Part shown: positions 6,365-32,092 of the stretch, piece after piece
How the letters are laid out: every line of letters starts with the position of its first letter
Position numbering within the stretch: the stretch's first letter is position 1
NCBI GenBank assembly: GCA_023263995.1
Contig: JALQTQ010000012.1
Location: forward strand, 1-32,092
Length of the DNA: 32,092 nt
Direction of reading: 5' to 3'
Source: Akkermansiaceae bacterium
GTDB lineage: Bacteria; Verrucomicrobiota; Verrucomicrobiia; Verrucomicrobiales; Akkermansiaceae
Translations under genes and position numbers: made by a program
The notes under the pieces: model-generated
The model's database searches: none
What the model was told of the DNA's origin: nothing
The model's input: only the letters and a program-made list of their open reading frames with translations

Positions 6365-6451
6365 AAAAAACGTCTGAAAAGCTGCTGGGAAAAGGTGATT
6401 CGGTGAAAGCAATTTCGATAGTTGCCCTTAGCGGTTGGCGTAGTTTCCCGC

Positions 6452-9400
6452 ATGTCAGCTCAATTTCCCCCTGAAATCCGGAACGGCCTGCTCGCGCTTC
6501 GGCGTCGCATTCGTCGGATCCGTCTCTTTCGTGGCCTTCTGCGGCTGGTTGGGGTAACGCTGGCCGGGCTCCTCGTCATCGTGGCTCTCGACTTCTTGCT
6601 GGCCCCGCTTCCCTCCTCGGCCCGGGCGGTTCTGTTTTTTGGCTGGCTCGCCGCGATCGTGGTGGCGGCTGTCGTCTTTTTGGTCGTTCCGCTGATGTCG
6701 CCGCTTCCGTTGGTTAGGCTGGCTCGCTGGCTCGAGGAACACCACCCGGAACTGCAAGAGCGGATCAGCACCACCCTGGAGTTGGCCGACCATCCCGAAG
6801 GAATCTCCCCGGCCTTGCTCGAAGAATTGTCCGAGGAGGCCGCGGCCGATATGACCTCGCTTGATCCCCGTCAGGAAGTGCAGACAAGACGGGTGCGGGC
6901 CTCGATGTGGCCGGCTCTCTCTAGCTTGGCTGCGATGGTGGTTCTTTTGGTGATCTGGCCCCAGGAGATGGGACGGCTTCTCACCCGTGCCGTCCTGCCT
7001 TTTTCCGAATTGGGAAATGCCGGGGCCTTCCGCTTTGAGGTTGCTCCCGGTGACCTCGAGGTTCTCGAGGGCGATGAATTCACTCTGGAATTGACCTACA
7101 CCGGCGAATTGCAAGGGCCTCTGGAACTGATCATGGACCGCAATGGAGAACGCGTGGTGGAAGAGCTGACGCCTGATGCGACGGATGATCGCACTTACCA
7201 TTACCGCTACACCGTGCACTCGGCCGCCGAGGGTTTTCGGTATTCGGCTCGGGTGGCGCGCGATGAAAGCGATCGCTTCGAGGTGAAGGTCTATCCCATT
7301 CCCCGCCTCCTTGAGCCGGTGGTCAGTCTTGCTTTTCCTGATTATACTGGGTGGCCCGACCGCGAGCTTCCCCTTGGCATGGGAATTCAGGCGCTGGCCG
7401 GGACCGAAGTTACCTTGCGTGGTCGCCTCGACACCCCGGTCAAGGGGGGCGAGGTGGTCTTTGGTCATCATTCGTTCGGAGAGCTCGGGTTGGAGCGAAA
7501 CGCTCGGGGAACCCTTGTTGAGTGGGTGGAAACTCTCCAGCCAGGGCAGGACGGGTCCGCCGTGATGAATGTCACCCACCAACTGGGTCGCGACTTTGAG
7601 GCCGCTCGTTTTGCCCTTGTCGCCACCGAGGATCCCGCCCCCGAAGTCCGCATCCTGACCCCGCTGGAGCGCAAGTTCCAGGTCCAGCCCAACGATCAGG
7701 TGATCATCACCTATGCCGTGACCGAGGAAATCGGCATCGACCGCACCGAGATCGAGTTGGAGATCGATGGGAAAGCAGTTGAGTCGCTCAGTGAGGTGCC
7801 CCCCGAGCGGGTCGACCTCGAGAACGGAAATCGCTGGGAAGGGGAGGCCATGGTCTACTTGGGTAGCCTGGTTTCCAGATACCCCGAGGCCACTCATGTG
7901 AGGATGCGTTTGAAGGTGAGCGATAATCGGCCCGCCGCATTGGCAGGCCCGGGAGTGGGCTTTTCCTATTGGTTGGAATTTCGACTGAACAAGGGTGCCG
8001 AGTCACTGGTGCGCCAAAAGCTCCGCAACCAAGATGCCGACCTCAAGAAGACCATCAACGATGTCGTGCGCAAAGTCCAGAACGCCCAAAACCGTATGCA
8101 TGAGGCCAAAGGACACCTCCGCCACGAAGAGGTCACCCGTCAGGCCGAAGAAGCCTTGGCCGCCACCCGCGATACCTTGAAGGAAGCGCGTTCCGAGTTG
8201 GCCGACTTGAGCGAGCGGATGGAAGAAGGTGTGCAGGCGCATCGCCGAGATGATGTCGCGCGCGCCTCCGAGAAGCTGGCGGAAGCGCAGATGGCCATCG
8301 AGAACGCCCCGCTCCAAGACAGCCCGGAGGCGCGACAGGATGAGGTCGACCGCGCCCGCGCGGAAAGCGAAGACGCCATCCGCGAATTGCAGAATCTCAA
8401 ACAAGACGTGGAACAGGATCGCGGGAAAATCGAGGACCTTGCCCGTTTGCAGGAAATGGCCCAGCGACAAGACGAGTTGGCTCGTCAGGCTGAGCAAGGT
8501 GAGCGCAACGAAAATTGGCAACAACAACAGGAACAACTTCGCGACGAATTGCTGAACCGAGTCAAGGAGTCTCCCGAAGCCAAGGCCGCCGCCCTTCGGG
8601 CTCAGGCCGAGGAGGCTCTTGAACTGGCCAAAGAGGCCGGGGAACTGCAGAAAGCTCAGGAAAATCTTGCCGAAGCGAGTGGGCAGGTCGGGGAAACGCC
8701 TTTCGACCTGAACGAAAATCAGGTTCGCGAGGCTCTGGCCAATCAACAGGAGAAAGTCGCCGCCGAAGCACGGCAGGAACTCAACGAAGCCCGTCGCGAT
8801 GACGAGCAAGAACGGATCCGGGATTTGAGCGAGGCAGTGGCGGAAAGCCAGCAGGCCGCTCGGCAGACCAGAGAGGCGAACGTGGAGGAGGCCGCTCGCA
8901 AGGCCGAAATGGCCGCCGAGGATCTGGAACGCCTCGCCGACGAGTCACCCACTCAGAAATCACTCGCCGAGAAGCAGGAAAAGATTGCCGAAGCACTCCA
9001 AGATCTCGCCGAGGGAAATCTCGACGAGGCCCGCTCAGCCGTCGCTGACCTCCAGAACAACCCGACTCTTCGGGAGCTTGGAAATGAACTAGCCGCTGAG
9101 CAGGAAACTGCGCTGAACCAAGCCAAGGAAGAATTGCAGCAAGCCCGCGACCAGCAGGACGAGCGTGCCGCCGACCTCCCCGCCGCCGTCGAAAAAGCCA
9201 ACGAGGCCCTCGCTGGTGCCCGCGAAAATCAACCCGAGAAGGCCGCGCAAGCCGCGAGCGAGGCGGCCGAGCAACTCGCGAAAGGCGAAGAGAAATCCCT
9301 CTCGCAGGAGGCGCTCCGCCAGAAGCAAGAAAAACTCGCCGAAGCGTTTGAGGCACTGGCCGAAGGTGATGGCGAAAAGGCCCGGGAGGCCCTCGAGGAC

Positions 9401-10834
9401 GCTCGGAACGTGCCCAGCCCCGAGGGGCTTGCCGAAGCGCTGGCCCAAGCCCAGCAGGATCTTCAGCAGGGAATTAAAAAGGCACAGGAGCAAGCGAGCG
9501 AAGCAGGCGAGGATGCCCGCGCCGAGTCCCTCGCCAAAGCGGCCAACGATGCCGGAAAAGCTTCGCAAGAGGCTCGGTCAAATGATGCCGAAGGTGCGGC
9601 TGAAGCGGCCAAAGAAGCCGCCGGTGAGCTCGCCGACGGGGTGGAAGGTCGCCTGTCCCAGAAGTCTCTGCAAAACCAGCAGGAGTCACTCGCCGAGGCC
9701 TTCGAGGCTTTTGCCGAAGGCGACCTCGAAAAAGCGGCCGAGGCGCTCGAGGCGGCGCAGGCCGAGCGTCTCTCCAACGCTCTGGAGCAAGCTTTGGCCC
9801 GTGAGCAGGAGGCCATTGTGGAAGGAGCCCGGCAGGAACTGAGCGATGCCCGCGAAGCGCTGGAAGATCGCGCCAATCATCTGCCGGAAGCCCTCGCGCA
9901 GGCACAGGCCGCTCTCGAGCAGGTCAAGCAGGGCGATCTGCCCGCCGCCGTTGCCGCTGCCCAATCTGCCGCATCCGAACTCGTCGAAGGATCTGAGATT
10001 TCGGCCTCGCAGGCCGGCTTGCAGGACCGTCAGGAGCAACTGGCCGACGCCCTCGAACGTCTGGTCGAGGGTGATCCGGCATCGGCACTGGCAGCCTTGC
10101 AGCAGATGCAAGCCGAGCGTGCCGAAGCTCTTGCCGAAGCGATTCAGGGAACTCCCCCGGTCGAAGGTAATCCATTGGGTGAAGCCGGACAGCAGGCCGA
10201 AGGAGGCGCGCAACAGGCCCAACAGGCGTCGCAGTCCCAACAAGCCGGACAGAATGCCCAGGCCTCGCAGCAGCATCAAGCGGCCGCCGAGCGATTTGCC
10301 CAGGCCCAGCAGTCGCTTGAAGGTGCTTCCGCCCAGATGGCCAGCCAAGCCCAGCAGGCGGCCCAACAAGGAGAGAACCCCAACAATGCCAACGCTCCGG
10401 GCGAGCCTCTTGCCGACGCCTTGCAAAATAGCTCGCAAGCCGCGCAAGCCGGCCAGAGCGGCCAACAACAATCCGCAGCGGAAAAATCGCGCTCGGCAGC
10501 CCAGTCTCTTCAGCAAGCTGCCAACCAAGCGATGTCGAACATGCAGCAGGGGAATCAGCCGGGAGACGCCATGGCGCAATCCGACCAGCCCCAGCCCGGG
10601 GAAGGAAAAGGAGAGTCGCCTCCACCGGACGAAGCAAAGGAGGGCATTCGGCAGGCCCAAGGTGACAAGGGGGTGCCCCCAGAACTCGCCAAGCTGGGCA
10701 TCAATACCAACGATTGGGAAAAAATCCAGGCCACGCTGAAAACCGATGTGAGCGGAGCTCGCGGCGCGGCTATTCCGGAAGACTACCGCGGGTTGGTGAG
10801 GAAATATTTTGAACAAATCTCGAAGGAAAAATGA
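6452..10834 (+). CDS. DUF4175-like giant membrane protein with tandem coiled-coil modules
   Basis: A 1460-residue protein starting at ATG 6452; a TTG at 6422 would add ten unlikely residues. An arginine-rich N-terminus precedes two membrane helices (about 29-51 and 58-82). A third lies near 150-170 (LSSLAAMVVLLVIW). Beta-rich Ig-like segments occupy about 185-520. From about 525 to the end it is a very long, Ala/Glu/Gln-rich helical region, including three full 117-118-residue repeats (residues 832-1183). A low-complexity Gln/Ala stretch follows, then a compact C-terminus ending DYRGLVRKYFEQISKEK. The N-terminal layout and C-terminal motif resemble DUF4175-type proteins of PVC and related bacteria, which have no settled function. 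The long helix would project from the membrane and could span the envelope. The next gene overlaps its stop by 4 bp, so the two are coupled. Confidence 0.85.
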   Translation: MSAQFPPEIRNGLLALRRRIRRIRLFRGLLRLVGVTLAGLLVIVALDFLLAPLPSSARAVLFFGWLAAIVVAAVVFLVVPLMSPLPLVRLARWLEEHHPELQERISTTLELADHPEGISPALLEELSEEAAADMTSLDPRQEVQTRRVRASMWPALSSLAAMVVLLVIWPQEMGRLLTRAVLPFSELGNAGAFRFEVAPGDLEVLEGDEFTLELTYTGELQGPLELIMDRNGERVVEELTPDATDDRTYHYRYTVHSAAEGFRYSARVARDESDRFEVKVYPIPRLLEPVVSLAFPDYTGWPDRELPLGMGIQALAGTEVTLRGRLDTPVKGGEVVFGHHSFGELGLERNARGTLVEWVETLQPGQDGSAVMNVTHQLGRDFEAARFALVATEDPAPEVRILTPLERKFQVQPNDQVIITYAVTEEIGIDRTEIELEIDGKAVESLSEVPPERVDLENGNRWEGEAMVYLGSLVSRYPEATHVRMRLKVSDNRPAALAGPGVGFSYWLEFRLNKGAESLVRQKLRNQDADLKKTINDVVRKVQNAQNRMHEAKGHLRHEEVTRQAEEALAATRDTLKEARSELADLSERMEEGVQAHRRDDVARASEKLAEAQMAIENAPLQDSPEARQDEVDRARAESEDAIRELQNLKQDVEQDRGKIEDLARLQEMAQRQDELARQAEQGERNENWQQQQEQLRDELLNRVKESPEAKAAALRAQAEEALELAKEAGELQKAQENLAEASGQVGETPFDLNENQVREALANQQEKVAAEARQELNEARRDDEQERIRDLSEAVAESQQAARQTREANVEEAARKAEMAAEDLERLADESPTQKSLAEKQEKIAEALQDLAEGNLDEARSAVADLQNNPTLRELGNELAAEQETALNQAKEELQQARDQQDERAADLPAAVEKANEALAGARENQPEKAAQAASEAAEQLAKGEEKSLSQEALRQKQEKLAEAFEALAEGDGEKAREALEDARNVPSPEGLAEALAQAQQDLQQGIKKAQEQASEAGEDARAESLAKAANDAGKASQEARSNDAEGAAEAAKEAAGELADGVEGRLSQKSLQNQQESLAEAFEAFAEGDLEKAAEALEAAQAERLSNALEQALAREQEAIVEGARQELSDAREALEDRANHLPEALAQAQAALEQVKQGDLPAAVAAAQSAASELVEGSEISASQAGLQDRQEQLADALERLVEGDPASALAALQQMQAERAEALAEAIQGTPPVEGNPLGEAGQQAEGGAQQAQQASQSQQAGQNAQASQQHQAAAERFAQAQQSLEGASAQMASQAQQAAQQGENPNNANAPGEPLADALQNSSQAAQAGQSGQQQSAAEKSRSAAQSLQQAANQAMSNMQQGNQPGDAMAQSDQPQPGEGKGESPPPDEAKEGIRQAQGDKGVPPELAKLGINTNDWEKIQATLKTDVSGARGAAIPEDYRGLVRKYFEQISKEK
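8945..10123 (+). repeat. Tandem 117-118-residue coiled-coil modules inside the DUF4175-like gene
   Basis: Three consecutive modules occupy 8945-9295, 9296-9649 and 9650-10000, and a shortened fourth begins at 10001. Each opens with a related block: TQKSLAEKQEKIAEALQDLA, SQEALRQKQEKLAEAFEALA, SQKSLQNQQESLAEAFEAFA, then SQAGLQDRQEQLADALERL. Each block is followed by an EG-[DN] turn. A half-module without the opening block lies just upstream (about 8700-8944). The repeats are diverged at DNA level and align without gaps over the opening blocks, so they look like old internal duplications, not an assembly artefact. Confidence 0.75.
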
Positions 10835-11880
10835 GACGATTTTTGACCATTCTTTTCGTTCTCGAAGCTTCTCTGTCCTTCGCCCAGGCACAGACCGAGA
10901 CCGTCTTTGCCAAGTGGGAGGAGAAGGTTGACCCGGCGGTTGAGCGCGGCCTGGAATACCTCGCTCTCGTTCAGGAGGATGACGGCAGCTACCCCGGAAG
11001 CTATGGGAATTCCTGCGGAGTGCCCGCCCTCGCCGGCATGGCCTTTTTATCGCGAGGACATCTGCCCACCGAGGGGGTCTACGCTGCTCCGCTGAATAAG
11101 ATCATTGATTTCCTCCTCAGTCGACAGGACCGCGCCGGTCTCTACACCGGCGGTCAGTATGGCAGCGGCCCGATGTATGGACACAACATCGCGACCCTCT
11201 TCCTTTCCGAGGTCTCAGGAATGGTCGATCCAGACCGCCAAAAGAAGATCAATGAGAGCCTGCCGCGGGCCCTTGCCCTCATCCTGAGAGCTCAGGCAGT
11301 GGACAAAAGTGAACGTCACCAGGGGGGCTGGCGCTATCATCCCAATTCACGCGACTCCGACACCTCGTGCAGCGGCTGGGCTCTCATGGCCCTCCGCTCG
11401 GCCAAGTTGAACGGGGCCGATGTGCCCGATCAGGCCATCGCCGACGCCATCGCTTACCTCTACGGAAACTTCTCGGAAACGAATGGACACTTCGGTTACT
11501 CAAGCCCCCACAATCAGAAGAACTCGCTCACCGGCATGGGGCTCCTCTGTCTCGAACTCTGCGGAGAACACGGGAAGCCGTCGACCATCAAGGCTGCCGA
11601 TTTCATCCTCGAGAGCTTCCGTTCACTCGAAGGAGCTCAATTCGAATTTTACGGCAATTATTACAACGCCCAAGCCATGTTCCAGATCGGTGGGAAGTAT
11701 TGGGACACCTACGCGAACTGGATGTATGACACTTACTTGAAAACCCAGAAGGATGACGGGTCATGGCCCAGTCGGGAAGCCGGCACGGTGTATGGCACCG
11801 CGATGATGACCCTCGCCTTCACCGTGCCTTACCGTCAGCTCCCGATTTACCAGCGTGACGAGACGGTGGACGAGGAGTAG
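10831..11880 (+). CDS. Secreted prenyltransferase/squalene-oxidase-repeat (alpha/alpha toroid) protein
   Basis: A 349-residue protein with a clear signal peptide (FLTILFVLEASLSFAQA), then repeats of the squalene-cyclase / protein-prenyltransferase alpha/alpha-barrel type. Recognisable repeat cores are YLALVQEDDGSYPG, GGWRYHPNSRDSDTSCSGWA and a C-terminal YLKTQKDDGSWPSREAG. I see no DXDD catalytic motif of hopene or squalene cyclases, and export to the periplasm argues against terpene chemistry. The fold may bind a ligand or partner protein. Its ATG overlaps the stop of the coiled-coil gene (ATGA), implying translational coupling and a shared role. The TPR gene follows after 9 bp. Exported toroid proteins of this kind recur in PVC genomes without a known function. 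Confidence 0.85.
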   Translation: MRRFLTILFVLEASLSFAQAQTETVFAKWEEKVDPAVERGLEYLALVQEDDGSYPGSYGNSCGVPALAGMAFLSRGHLPTEGVYAAPLNKIIDFLLSRQDRAGLYTGGQYGSGPMYGHNIATLFLSEVSGMVDPDRQKKINESLPRALALILRAQAVDKSERHQGGWRYHPNSRDSDTSCSGWALMALRSAKLNGADVPDQAIADAIAYLYGNFSETNGHFGYSSPHNQKNSLTGMGLLCLELCGEHGKPSTIKAADFILESFRSLEGAQFEFYGNYYNAQAMFQIGGKYWDTYANWMYDTYLKTQKDDGSWPSREAGTVYGTAMMTLAFTVPYRQLPIYQRDETVDEE

Positions 11881-11889
11881 GGTTCGCCC

Positions 11890-12465
11890 ATGCCCGAGAT
11901 CGACGAGCTTTACGAAGCGTTGGAGGAAGCCCGCGACGCTGACCAGGTGGCCAGCGCCTGTGTCCTCTACGAGGAAATCCTGACTCACGACGACGAAGAG
12001 GAGATTCCCTCGACCCTCCTCTACGTTCAGGATCTTACCGACCTTGGGAACTACGGGCAGGCCTTCGCTACCCTGCAAAGGATCGAAGACCTCGTGCCTC
12101 AGCCTATCGAGGCCACCTTTCATTGGGTCAAAGGTACGGTGCACCAGGAAATGGGGGACTTTGCCGAGGCGGAAGCCTGCTATCGCGAGGCCGACAAGCG
12201 GGAAACTGAAAACCGCGGCGACTACCTTGTCCAGGCCGCGGGCATGGCCTTTCATCGGGGTGAGCCCGCCCGGGCCGAATACCTCGTGCGGGAGGCCTTG
12301 AAAAAAGAGTGCGAACGCGACGAAGCTCTCGGGAACCTCGCGACCTACCTTGCCAGTCAACGCCGCTTCCCGGAGGCCCGCGACGCCTTCCAGGAGGTCC
12401 TCGAGATCGATCCCGAAAACGAGATCGCCCGCGAGTGGCTTCTCGACCTTGACCATCTGGTCTGA
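11890..12465 (+). CDS. Tetratricopeptide-repeat protein
   Basis: A 191-residue, acidic, wholly helical protein without signal peptide or membrane segment, so probably cytoplasmic. TPR-like helix pairs are visible: LGNYGQAFATLQRIEDLVPQ, MGDFAEAEACYREADKRETE, RGEPARAEYLVREALKKECE and SQRRFPEARDAFQEVLEIDP; the last is a canonical TPR. It is the third gene of the unit beginning at 6452, 9 bp after the toroid gene. It probably acts as a protein-interaction scaffold, but its partner is unknown. No strong Shine-Dalgarno precedes the ATG. Confidence 0.85.
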   Translation: MPEIDELYEALEEARDADQVASACVLYEEILTHDDEEEIPSTLLYVQDLTDLGNYGQAFATLQRIEDLVPQPIEATFHWVKGTVHQEMGDFAEAEACYREADKRETENRGDYLVQAAGMAFHRGEPARAEYLVREALKKECERDEALGNLATYLASQRRFPEARDAFQEVLEIDPENEIAREWLLDLDHLV

Positions 12466-23845: not shown

Positions 23846-24298
23846 TCACTCCCGCTTTCGCGAGTCGATGAGAATGGTCACTGGCCCATCGTTGACAAGG
23901 GTGACCCGCATCGCTGCCCCGAAAGTCCCTCGGCCCACCTGATGCCCTAGCTCGCGTGAAAAGGCCTCGCAGAACTCCTGAGAGAGGGGCTCGGCATGGC
24001 CGGGCCGGGCCGCCCGCACGTAACTCGGTCGATTCCCTTTCTTCGTTGAGGCGTGGAGCGTGAACTGACTCACTACCAGTGCCGAACCACCCCGGTCTTT
24101 GAGGTCGAGATTCATTTTGCCGTCCTTGTCGTCGAAGATCCGCATGCGTAGGATCTTCGTCACTAACCAAGCGAGATCTCCAAGGTCATCAGCTTCCTCG
24201 ATTCCGAGGAGGATGAGGAGGCCGGGCCCGATTTCGGAAATGCGGGTTCCCTCGACCTCCACCGAAGCCTTGAGCACTCTTTGAATCACGGCGCGCAC
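23846..24298 (-). CDS. dtd: D-aminoacyl-tRNA deacylase
   Basis: A 150-residue protein, the typical DTD length, which hydrolyses D-amino acids (and glycine mischarged on tRNA-Ala) from tRNA, protecting translation. The start MRAVIQRVLKASVEVEG is canonical. The two family signatures are present: SQFTLHA at residues 77-83 and the cross-subunit NDGPVT at 136-141 with the Gly-Pro pair. It acts as a homodimer in the cytoplasm. It lies 16 bp after the DUF2339 gene on the same strand and is probably co-transcribed with it. Its stop is 1 bp from the stop of the convergent membrane-protein gene, leaving no room for separate terminators. Confidence 0.98.
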   Translation of the reverse strand: MRAVIQRVLKASVEVEGTRISEIGPGLLILLGIEEADDLGDLAWLVTKILRMRIFDDKDGKMNLDLKDRGGSALVVSQFTLHASTKKGNRPSYVRAARPGHAEPLSQEFCEAFSRELGHQVGRGTFGAAMRVTLVNDGPVTILIDSRKRE

Positions 24299-31030: not shown

Positions 31031-32092
31031 ATGTTCGGGGAACGCTACTTCGCAACGCGTGGACGCCTGAGCAAGGTCGTCGACGCCACCTTGGCCTTGG
31101 GTCGTGATTGCGGTGCCGGGTTGCTGGCCGATCAGCTTGGCGGGGTGGCCGGTGGGGGTGAAGATGCTCTGCAGGGATTGCGACGCCCTTTTCTCTTTTT
31201 GGTCTGCGGGGAGGTCAATGCAGGCAAGTCGAGCTTTCTCAACGGCTTGTTTGGTGTCGAGCTGTGCCAAACCGGCGAACTGCCGTTGACCTCCAGAGTG
31301 ACCCACTACCATTGGAACGGGGAATCCTCGGAGGGAGAGGGAGAAGGTGGGGTTCTCTTTTGCGGGAGGGCGCAGGCCTTTTTGCGTGATTTCGAGGTAG
31401 TGGATACCCCGGGAACGAATGCCCGTTCGGGAGACCACCTCCCCCTGGTCGATGATTACCTTCGGCGTGCCGACATCATCTTCTTTGTCTTCCCGGTTGA
31501 TAATCCCTGGGGTGCCGGAACTTGGCAATTAGTGGCGAGGATGCCGGAGGAGCAACTGGACAATGCAGCCTTCGTTCTGCAGCAGAGTGATTTGCGAGAT
31601 GAGGGGGACTTGGAGGTCATCTCCGGTCACATGCGCACCTTGGCCGAGCAAAAGACGGGGCGGACTCCTCAGATTCACGTGGTTTCGGCCAAGCAGGCCT
31701 TGCAAGCCCGGCAGAGCGACCCGATGCTCTCCCACCTGTGGCGCAAGAGTGGTTATGCCGGGCTGGAGCGCTTTGTTTCTGATCGAGTCAACTGCAATGC
31801 TGATCGGTTCACGGTCTTGCGGGAGGTCCGGAAGGCCACGCAGGAGACCCTGCGGATGATCGAAGAACACATCGAGGAGCGGACCGACCGTCTCGATGGG
31901 GACGAACGTTTTCTCGCGGAGCTGGAAAACGAGGTGGATAACCGTCGCGAAAAACAGGCCACGGTACTTTCAGCCCGTCTGATTGATCTGGGCGGGGTGT
32001 TCCTACGGCAGGGCCAGTTGGCCGCCCGGGATTTGGGGCATCGGATGGCTTTCCTCCAAAGTCTGGTTTCCTTGTTCCGGCGGGAGAAACTA
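31031..32092 (+). CDS. Dynamin-like GTPase (3' end cut by window edge)
   Basis: The frame is open from ATG 31031 to the window end, 354 codons without a stop. The GTPase domain has a P-loop in GEVNAGKSSFLNGLFG (near residue 60), a switch threonine in LPLTSRVTH and the G3 motif VVDTPGTN. The G4 position is a non-canonical QQSDLR, not a [NT]KxD. A helical, charged segment with coiled-coil character follows (LREVRKATQETLRMIEEHI, then EERTDRLDG) and a more hydrophobic stretch begins near the edge. This order fits bacterial dynamin-like proteins, which remodel or protect membranes; the full length and membrane-binding part cannot be seen. It follows the deacetylase by 35 bp on the same strand. Confidence 0.85.
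   Translation, partial: MFGERYFATRGRLSKVVDATLALGRDCGAGLLADQLGGVAGGGEDALQGLRRPFLFLVCGEVNAGKSSFLNGLFGVELCQTGELPLTSRVTHYHWNGESSEGEGEGGVLFCGRAQAFLRDFEVVDTPGTNARSGDHLPLVDDYLRRADIIFFVFPVDNPWGAGTWQLVARMPEEQLDNAAFVLQQSDLRDEGDLEVISGHMRTLAEQKTGRTPQIHVVSAKQALQARQSDPMLSHLWRKSGYAGLERFVSDRVNCNADRFTVLREVRKATQETLRMIEEHIEERTDRLDGDERFLAELENEVDNRREKQATVLSARLIDLGGVFLRQGQLAARDLGHRMAFLQSLVSLFRREKL

Follow-up and report, generated by a model that had tools for sequence, protein, structure and literature searches.

Three tightly packed genes in a Verrucomicrobiota contig raise the question of whether they form an envelope-spanning system of their own, as a preliminary description had suggested, or belong to a larger gene set. 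The window analyzed here (the whole stretch of 32,092 nucleotides) is the entire contig C33 of genome G000 (3.85 Mb, 562 contigs, 81% complete), and the three genes are laid out in it as follows:

6452..10834, plus strand: gene A (A1), 1460 aa, ATG start; predicted inner-membrane protein with two transmembrane (TM) helices, a cytoplasmic segment, a third TM helix, three Ig-like domains, a helical rod and a C-terminal tail
10831..11880, plus strand: gene B (B1), 349 aa, start inside ATGA (4-bp overlap with A); predicted exported alpha/alpha-toroid with the terpene-cyclase fold
11890..12465, plus strand: gene C, 191 aa, 9-bp gap after B; TPR protein without signal or TM segment, an accessory, clade-restricted neighbor

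The open reading frames, strands and spacing are all as first described (an upstream TTG start of A at 6422 is possible, although unlikely). Orthologues of A and B span the full length without internal stops in dozens of genomes, and the 4-bp overlap is found again in most A-B pairs of relatives, so these reading frames are not chance. Upstream of A, on the other strand, are genes for DUF1501 and PSD1 proteins, and downstream of the trio are genes for T2SSG-like, cytochrome-c, pyruvate-carboxylase-like and valyl-tRNA-synthetase-like proteins; a dynamin-family GTPase gene (31031-32092) runs off the contig end. As noted earlier, no MoxR, DUF58 or von Willebrand (vWA) gene is present among the scanned genes of the window (a 150-aa ORF at 23846-24298 and small overlapping ORFs being left out of the scan).

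Gene A encodes the largest of the three proteins, and two further features were identified in it:

8963..10310 (boundaries approximate), plus strand: about four tandem 117-118-aa helical repeats (self-comparison, repeat HMM)
10640..10831, plus strand: conserved C-terminal tail, GVPPELAKLGI..DWEKI...(I/V)PEDYRGLV.KYF

Hydropathy gives hydrophobic segments at about residues 25-58, 55-92 and 150-170. An AF2 model of residues 1-560 only, built from a 27-sequence alignment (mean pLDDT 87.6, pTM 0.62), contains in order a TM hairpin, a helical segment predicted to be cytoplasmic (about 85-145), a third TM helix (about 150-170), three tandem Ig-like domains (about 190-515; Foldseek and VIA-align matches are confined to about 190-511) and the beginning of a helix. 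The hydrophobic segments and the confident model agree with the proposed membrane anchor. The proposed very long coiled coil is borne out as a helical rod, part of which is made of the 117-aa repeats instead: self-comparison gives 113 at offset 118 and 91 at offset 117, whereas heptad-shuffled controls reach about 58 at most. The repeat HMM finds four strong copies in A of the window, three to five in close relatives and fewer or none in others (the HMM was built from the window's own units, so counts in distant relatives are lower bounds). At the DNA level, a search for tandem repeats missed the array, indicating that the copies have diverged in DNA. Repeat number differs even between very similar species (e.g. 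G014 and G019; loci L033-L041). A straight helix rises 0.15 nm per residue, and residues 519-1330 as one straight helix would span about 120 nm, far beyond the width of the periplasm; the rod must therefore fold back or stack as repeats. Nearly every full-length A1 orthologue ends in this tail at its extreme C-terminus, three A3-like paralogues carry it in shortened form, and no similar motif was found outside A proteins in the fetched loci.

The label DUF4175-like, given to A before, applies to a paralogue rather than to A itself. We found no match of A to Pfam DUF4175 (PF13779) at the gathering cut-off, and an orthologue (L050) scores 17.7 bits against a cut-off of 27.3, whereas the class-3 paralogue A3 passes with 46 bits. 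A is about 22-27% identical to the class-3 paralogue over the N-terminal 400 or so residues and differs from it in having its own extended C-terminal tail and the 117-aa repeats; A as a plain DUF4175 protein was rejected, the curated cut-off not being reached. AdvA, a DUF4175-domain protein required for division in Acinetobacter (PMC7481262), is for this reason a distant functional lead for A at best.

B matches Pfam SQHop_cyclase_C (31.2 bits, cut-off 26.1), and its model is an alpha/alpha-toroid (pLDDT 90.2), which together with the signal-like N-terminus of the B1 family supports the earlier view of an exported toroid. Its closest fold is squalene-hopene cyclase (Z 27.7, rmsd 2.6 over 277 residues, 19% identity). 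B shares the fold and cyclase-family sequence similarity with class II terpene cyclases (SHC/OSC); unlike the C-terminal domain of squalene-hopene cyclase, it is a single exported toroid without DxDD. None of the 33 B1 sequences has this class II cyclase motif, and B as an active cyclase was rejected on that ground; B is also far below the cut-off of NCBIfam cyclase models (34 vs. 323 bits). The thioester motif CGEQ is absent as well, although C3 chains appear among the fold matches, and a thioester protein (alpha2-macroglobulin/C3) was likewise rejected. With neither the cyclase acid nor the thioester motif, B is probably a binding module and not a cyclase. The B1 family has a common C-terminal segment (R.LPIYQRDE) and invariant positions Y116, E127, Q155, W167, R168, Y169, D177, Y223, Y274, Y277, Y278 and Q281; two tandem B1 copies lie side by side at G064:C52:15747-17953.

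The same features allow another reading, in which B would be a periplasmic enzyme acting on glycans or isoprenoids, A its membrane scaffold, and a MoxR head (the upstream genes found in relatives, below) would mature or load the enzyme as NorQD does NOR. Terpene cyclases, GH76 mannanases, sugar epimerases and AprG all have the alpha/alpha-toroid fold, and the Tyr, Trp, Asp, Glu and Gln positions of B are unusually conserved; the missing DxDD and the distance from the cyclase cut-offs speak against it, and we consider it unlikely, though the best of the alternatives.

As for gene C, the TPR repeats and the lack of a hydrophobic segment fit the cytoplasmic TPR protein described before. Its orthologues occur in 22 genomes of the window's genus, a single weak match lies in another family, and C adjoins B in one subclade only (it is unlinked in G001, G002, G006, G008, G009 and G017); within the window's subclade the gap between B and C is nearly constant at 8-9 bp. 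The trio as one conserved unit is ruled out by this clade restriction. Rare adjacency of the three genes, named in the preliminary description as the observation that would speak against the unit, is what we found for C and not for A and B, which are adjacent in 31 of the 33 assessable loci from three families of one order (exceptions: G068 and G076). Of 36 loci counted, three were set aside (a duplicate, one with A frameshifted or broken, and one at a contig end), which leaves the 33. In L042 (G016:C151), A is apparently frameshifted or broken near the contig end. A and B stay adjacent although their surroundings change between loci, and they are a real, closely coupled unit. The proposed spread of parts across cytoplasm, membrane and periplasm accordingly narrows to A-B in membrane and periplasm, with C no stable member. 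Judged by its distribution, C is a recent local neighbor of A-B; it may encode a cytoplasmic TPR adaptor peculiar to this lineage, or be unrelated to A-B and simply transcribed with it.

Kinship to other genomes suggests that the window belongs to the Verrucomicrobiales, family Akkermansiaceae. Orthologues of A1 extend beyond the window's genus to several more genera of its family and to two other families within the order. B1 has the same spread; when the class was sampled evenly, B1 turned up in four genera of this family only. One of the loci (L031/L062, CAMAUV010000036.1, G068:C36) is in a 4.7-Mb MAG titled Akkermansia muciniphila that falls in a different family of the order from the window's, and the label looks doubtful. 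In sister genera and other families we observed the run MoxR - DUF58 - BatA/vWA/PA14 - vWA/MG2 - A - B, with A-B at the 3' end; head and tail are joined in this way in L051, L053, L056, L057, L058, L060, L063, L088 and L091, and L052 has the joined run up to A, where the contig ends. DUF58, BatA and almost all of the vWA1 proteins examined retain the MIDAS motif (DxSxS), which is not matched in the vWA1 of L058. From this gene order, A-B is very probably part of a six-protein MoxR/vWA system.

In the window's genus the four head genes are found together elsewhere, with unrelated genes after vWA1 (L073-L077, L082). The window's own genome has an orthologous head on contig C50, separate from A-B, and this contig ends inside vWA1, so that the 3' neighbor of vWA1 is known here from relatives only. 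The C50 proteins share 83% (MoxR1), 68% (DUF58), 49% (BatA) and 52% (vWA) identity with those of the sister genus, and the MoxR1 value is well above the eight other MoxR matches in the genome (best 58-59%; nine matches in all). The trio had been taken to stand apart from MoxR, DUF58 and vWA genes, which fails on two counts, the head directly preceding A-B in relatives and its orthologue being on C50. By these comparisons the window's A-B is the separated tail of a MoxR/vWA operon whose head is on C50.

Among 97 genomes, 51 have A/B and vWA1, two have A/B only, two have vWA1 only and 42 have neither (counts read by hand from homologue listings). Fisher's test gives p of about 1.5e-22, a value that ignores kinship and thus overstates independence. 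The two A/B-only genomes (G003 and G015) do have MoxR1, and the two vWA1-only genomes (G017 and G086) are 78% and 86% complete. These counts bear on a second alternative, that A-B-C is an autonomous three-gene system with merely common ancestry with the MoxR operon. The movement of A-B away from the head in several lineages with its own integrity kept would suit it, as would the near-constant spacing of C; yet head and tail are lost or kept together across the 97 genomes and C is not a stable partner, which makes an autonomous trio improbable. In a concatenated tree (rooted at midpoint), joined loci occupy the base as well as several branches, and split ones are in the window's genus, G033/G045 and G048. 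Read directly from this placement on the tree, the order with head and tail joined is most likely the original one, with at least three separate breaks since. A-B has relocated repeatedly, and it may be in part independent of the MoxR head.

A third alternative, that in split lineages A-B serves another machine (a type IV pilus or a type II secretion system, for example), draws on G002, G005 and G009, where A-B directly follows PilB-like (T2SSE/MshEN), PilC-like (T2SSF) and ABC ATPase genes (L044, L046 and L043, respectively; domains scanned in G005, gene sizes matching in the other two), and on archaeal T4P loci, which carry vWA/MoxR pairs and in Thermococci also a squalene cyclase (PMC4858521), but it is very improbable, as this neighborhood was confined to a single subclade, neither the window nor its closest relatives show it, and genomes that have it still keep the MoxR head (L074, L075).

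The six-gene run resembles several known systems. It shares MoxR AAA_3, DUF58, a double-TM BatA-like vWA protein and a second MIDAS vWA protein, in series in relatives, with Bat-type operons, and differs from them in the Ig/rod protein and the exported toroid, which are encoded elsewhere in the window's genus; in the joined operon L051, none of the six genes matches BatD of the classical BatABCDE set. NorQ-NorD and RavA-ViaA likewise pair a MoxR-family ATPase with a MIDAS vWA partner, whereas here several vWA proteins go together with Ig, PA14, MG2, rod and toroid modules outside the cytoplasm. MoxR1 also clears the bpMoxR model, at 41-44 bits. For the MoxR-vWA-beta-propeller ternary conflict system, no propeller was found among the operon genes, and an anti-phage or conflict system was rejected for want of a PADLOC match. 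We found no paper joining MoxR with DUF4175, nor one linking MoxR to a toroid in PVC bacteria. The claim of an undescribed envelope-spanning system therefore survives in part: the function of A-B is not described in the literature searched, and the pair is no orphan, being the tail of a MoxR/vWA operon.

This operon has paralogues. In the window's genome, a class-3 set on G000:C55 (L065) consists of MoxR, DUF58, BatA, a GATase1-like protein and A3 (assigned to the DUF4175 type from its L069 relative), and by sequence relationship the window's A-B belongs to one of at least two parallel MoxR/vWA sets in the genome. Further exported toroid genes are on C14 and C218 of G000, and another paralogous locus is G000:C259 (L066). 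In L067 (G005:C140) a class-2 pair A2/B2 is followed by three genes whose products (575, 495 and 458 aa) match nothing in Pfam.

Putting these together, our main reading (probability roughly 0.6) is that A and B belong, as its two distal parts, to a MoxR/vWA envelope system of six proteins whose operon is split in the window's genus, working as follows. A cytoplasmic MoxR ring would act through the MIDAS vWA proteins to remodel a membrane assembly, a step suggested by the intact MIDAS motifs and by analogy with NorQD, a MoxR/vWA pair reported to exert force on a partner region, the ATPase twisting and stretching the linker of its vWA partner (PMC13036017). The cytoplasmic segment and TM helices of A would pick up this action at the membrane, and A would pass it to the periplasm via its three Ig domains and repeat-built rod; such transmission through A, argued by analogy, is a tentative step. 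The conserved tail of A and the toroid B would form the distal end of the assembly, with B serving as a ring that binds a ligand or peptide and not as a cyclase. That the tail binds B is a rather doubtful proposal from sequence conservation, and such binding is not general, since the class-2 pair A2/B2 is without the tail. The fullest version, a Verrucomicrobiota machine powered by MoxR/vWA in which ATP-driven remodeling would be carried by an Ig-rod A of variable repeat length to a cyclase-fold binding ring B, draws on models and analogy and is speculative, with the odds well against it.

In place of an orphan trio, the locus now offers a defined six-component system in which A-B is the stable distal module, and the conserved tail of A and the conserved residues and C-terminal segment of B are candidate contacts. 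MoxR/DUF58/vWA sets are numerous and few of their envelope targets are known, and a concrete periplasmic end-point would help.
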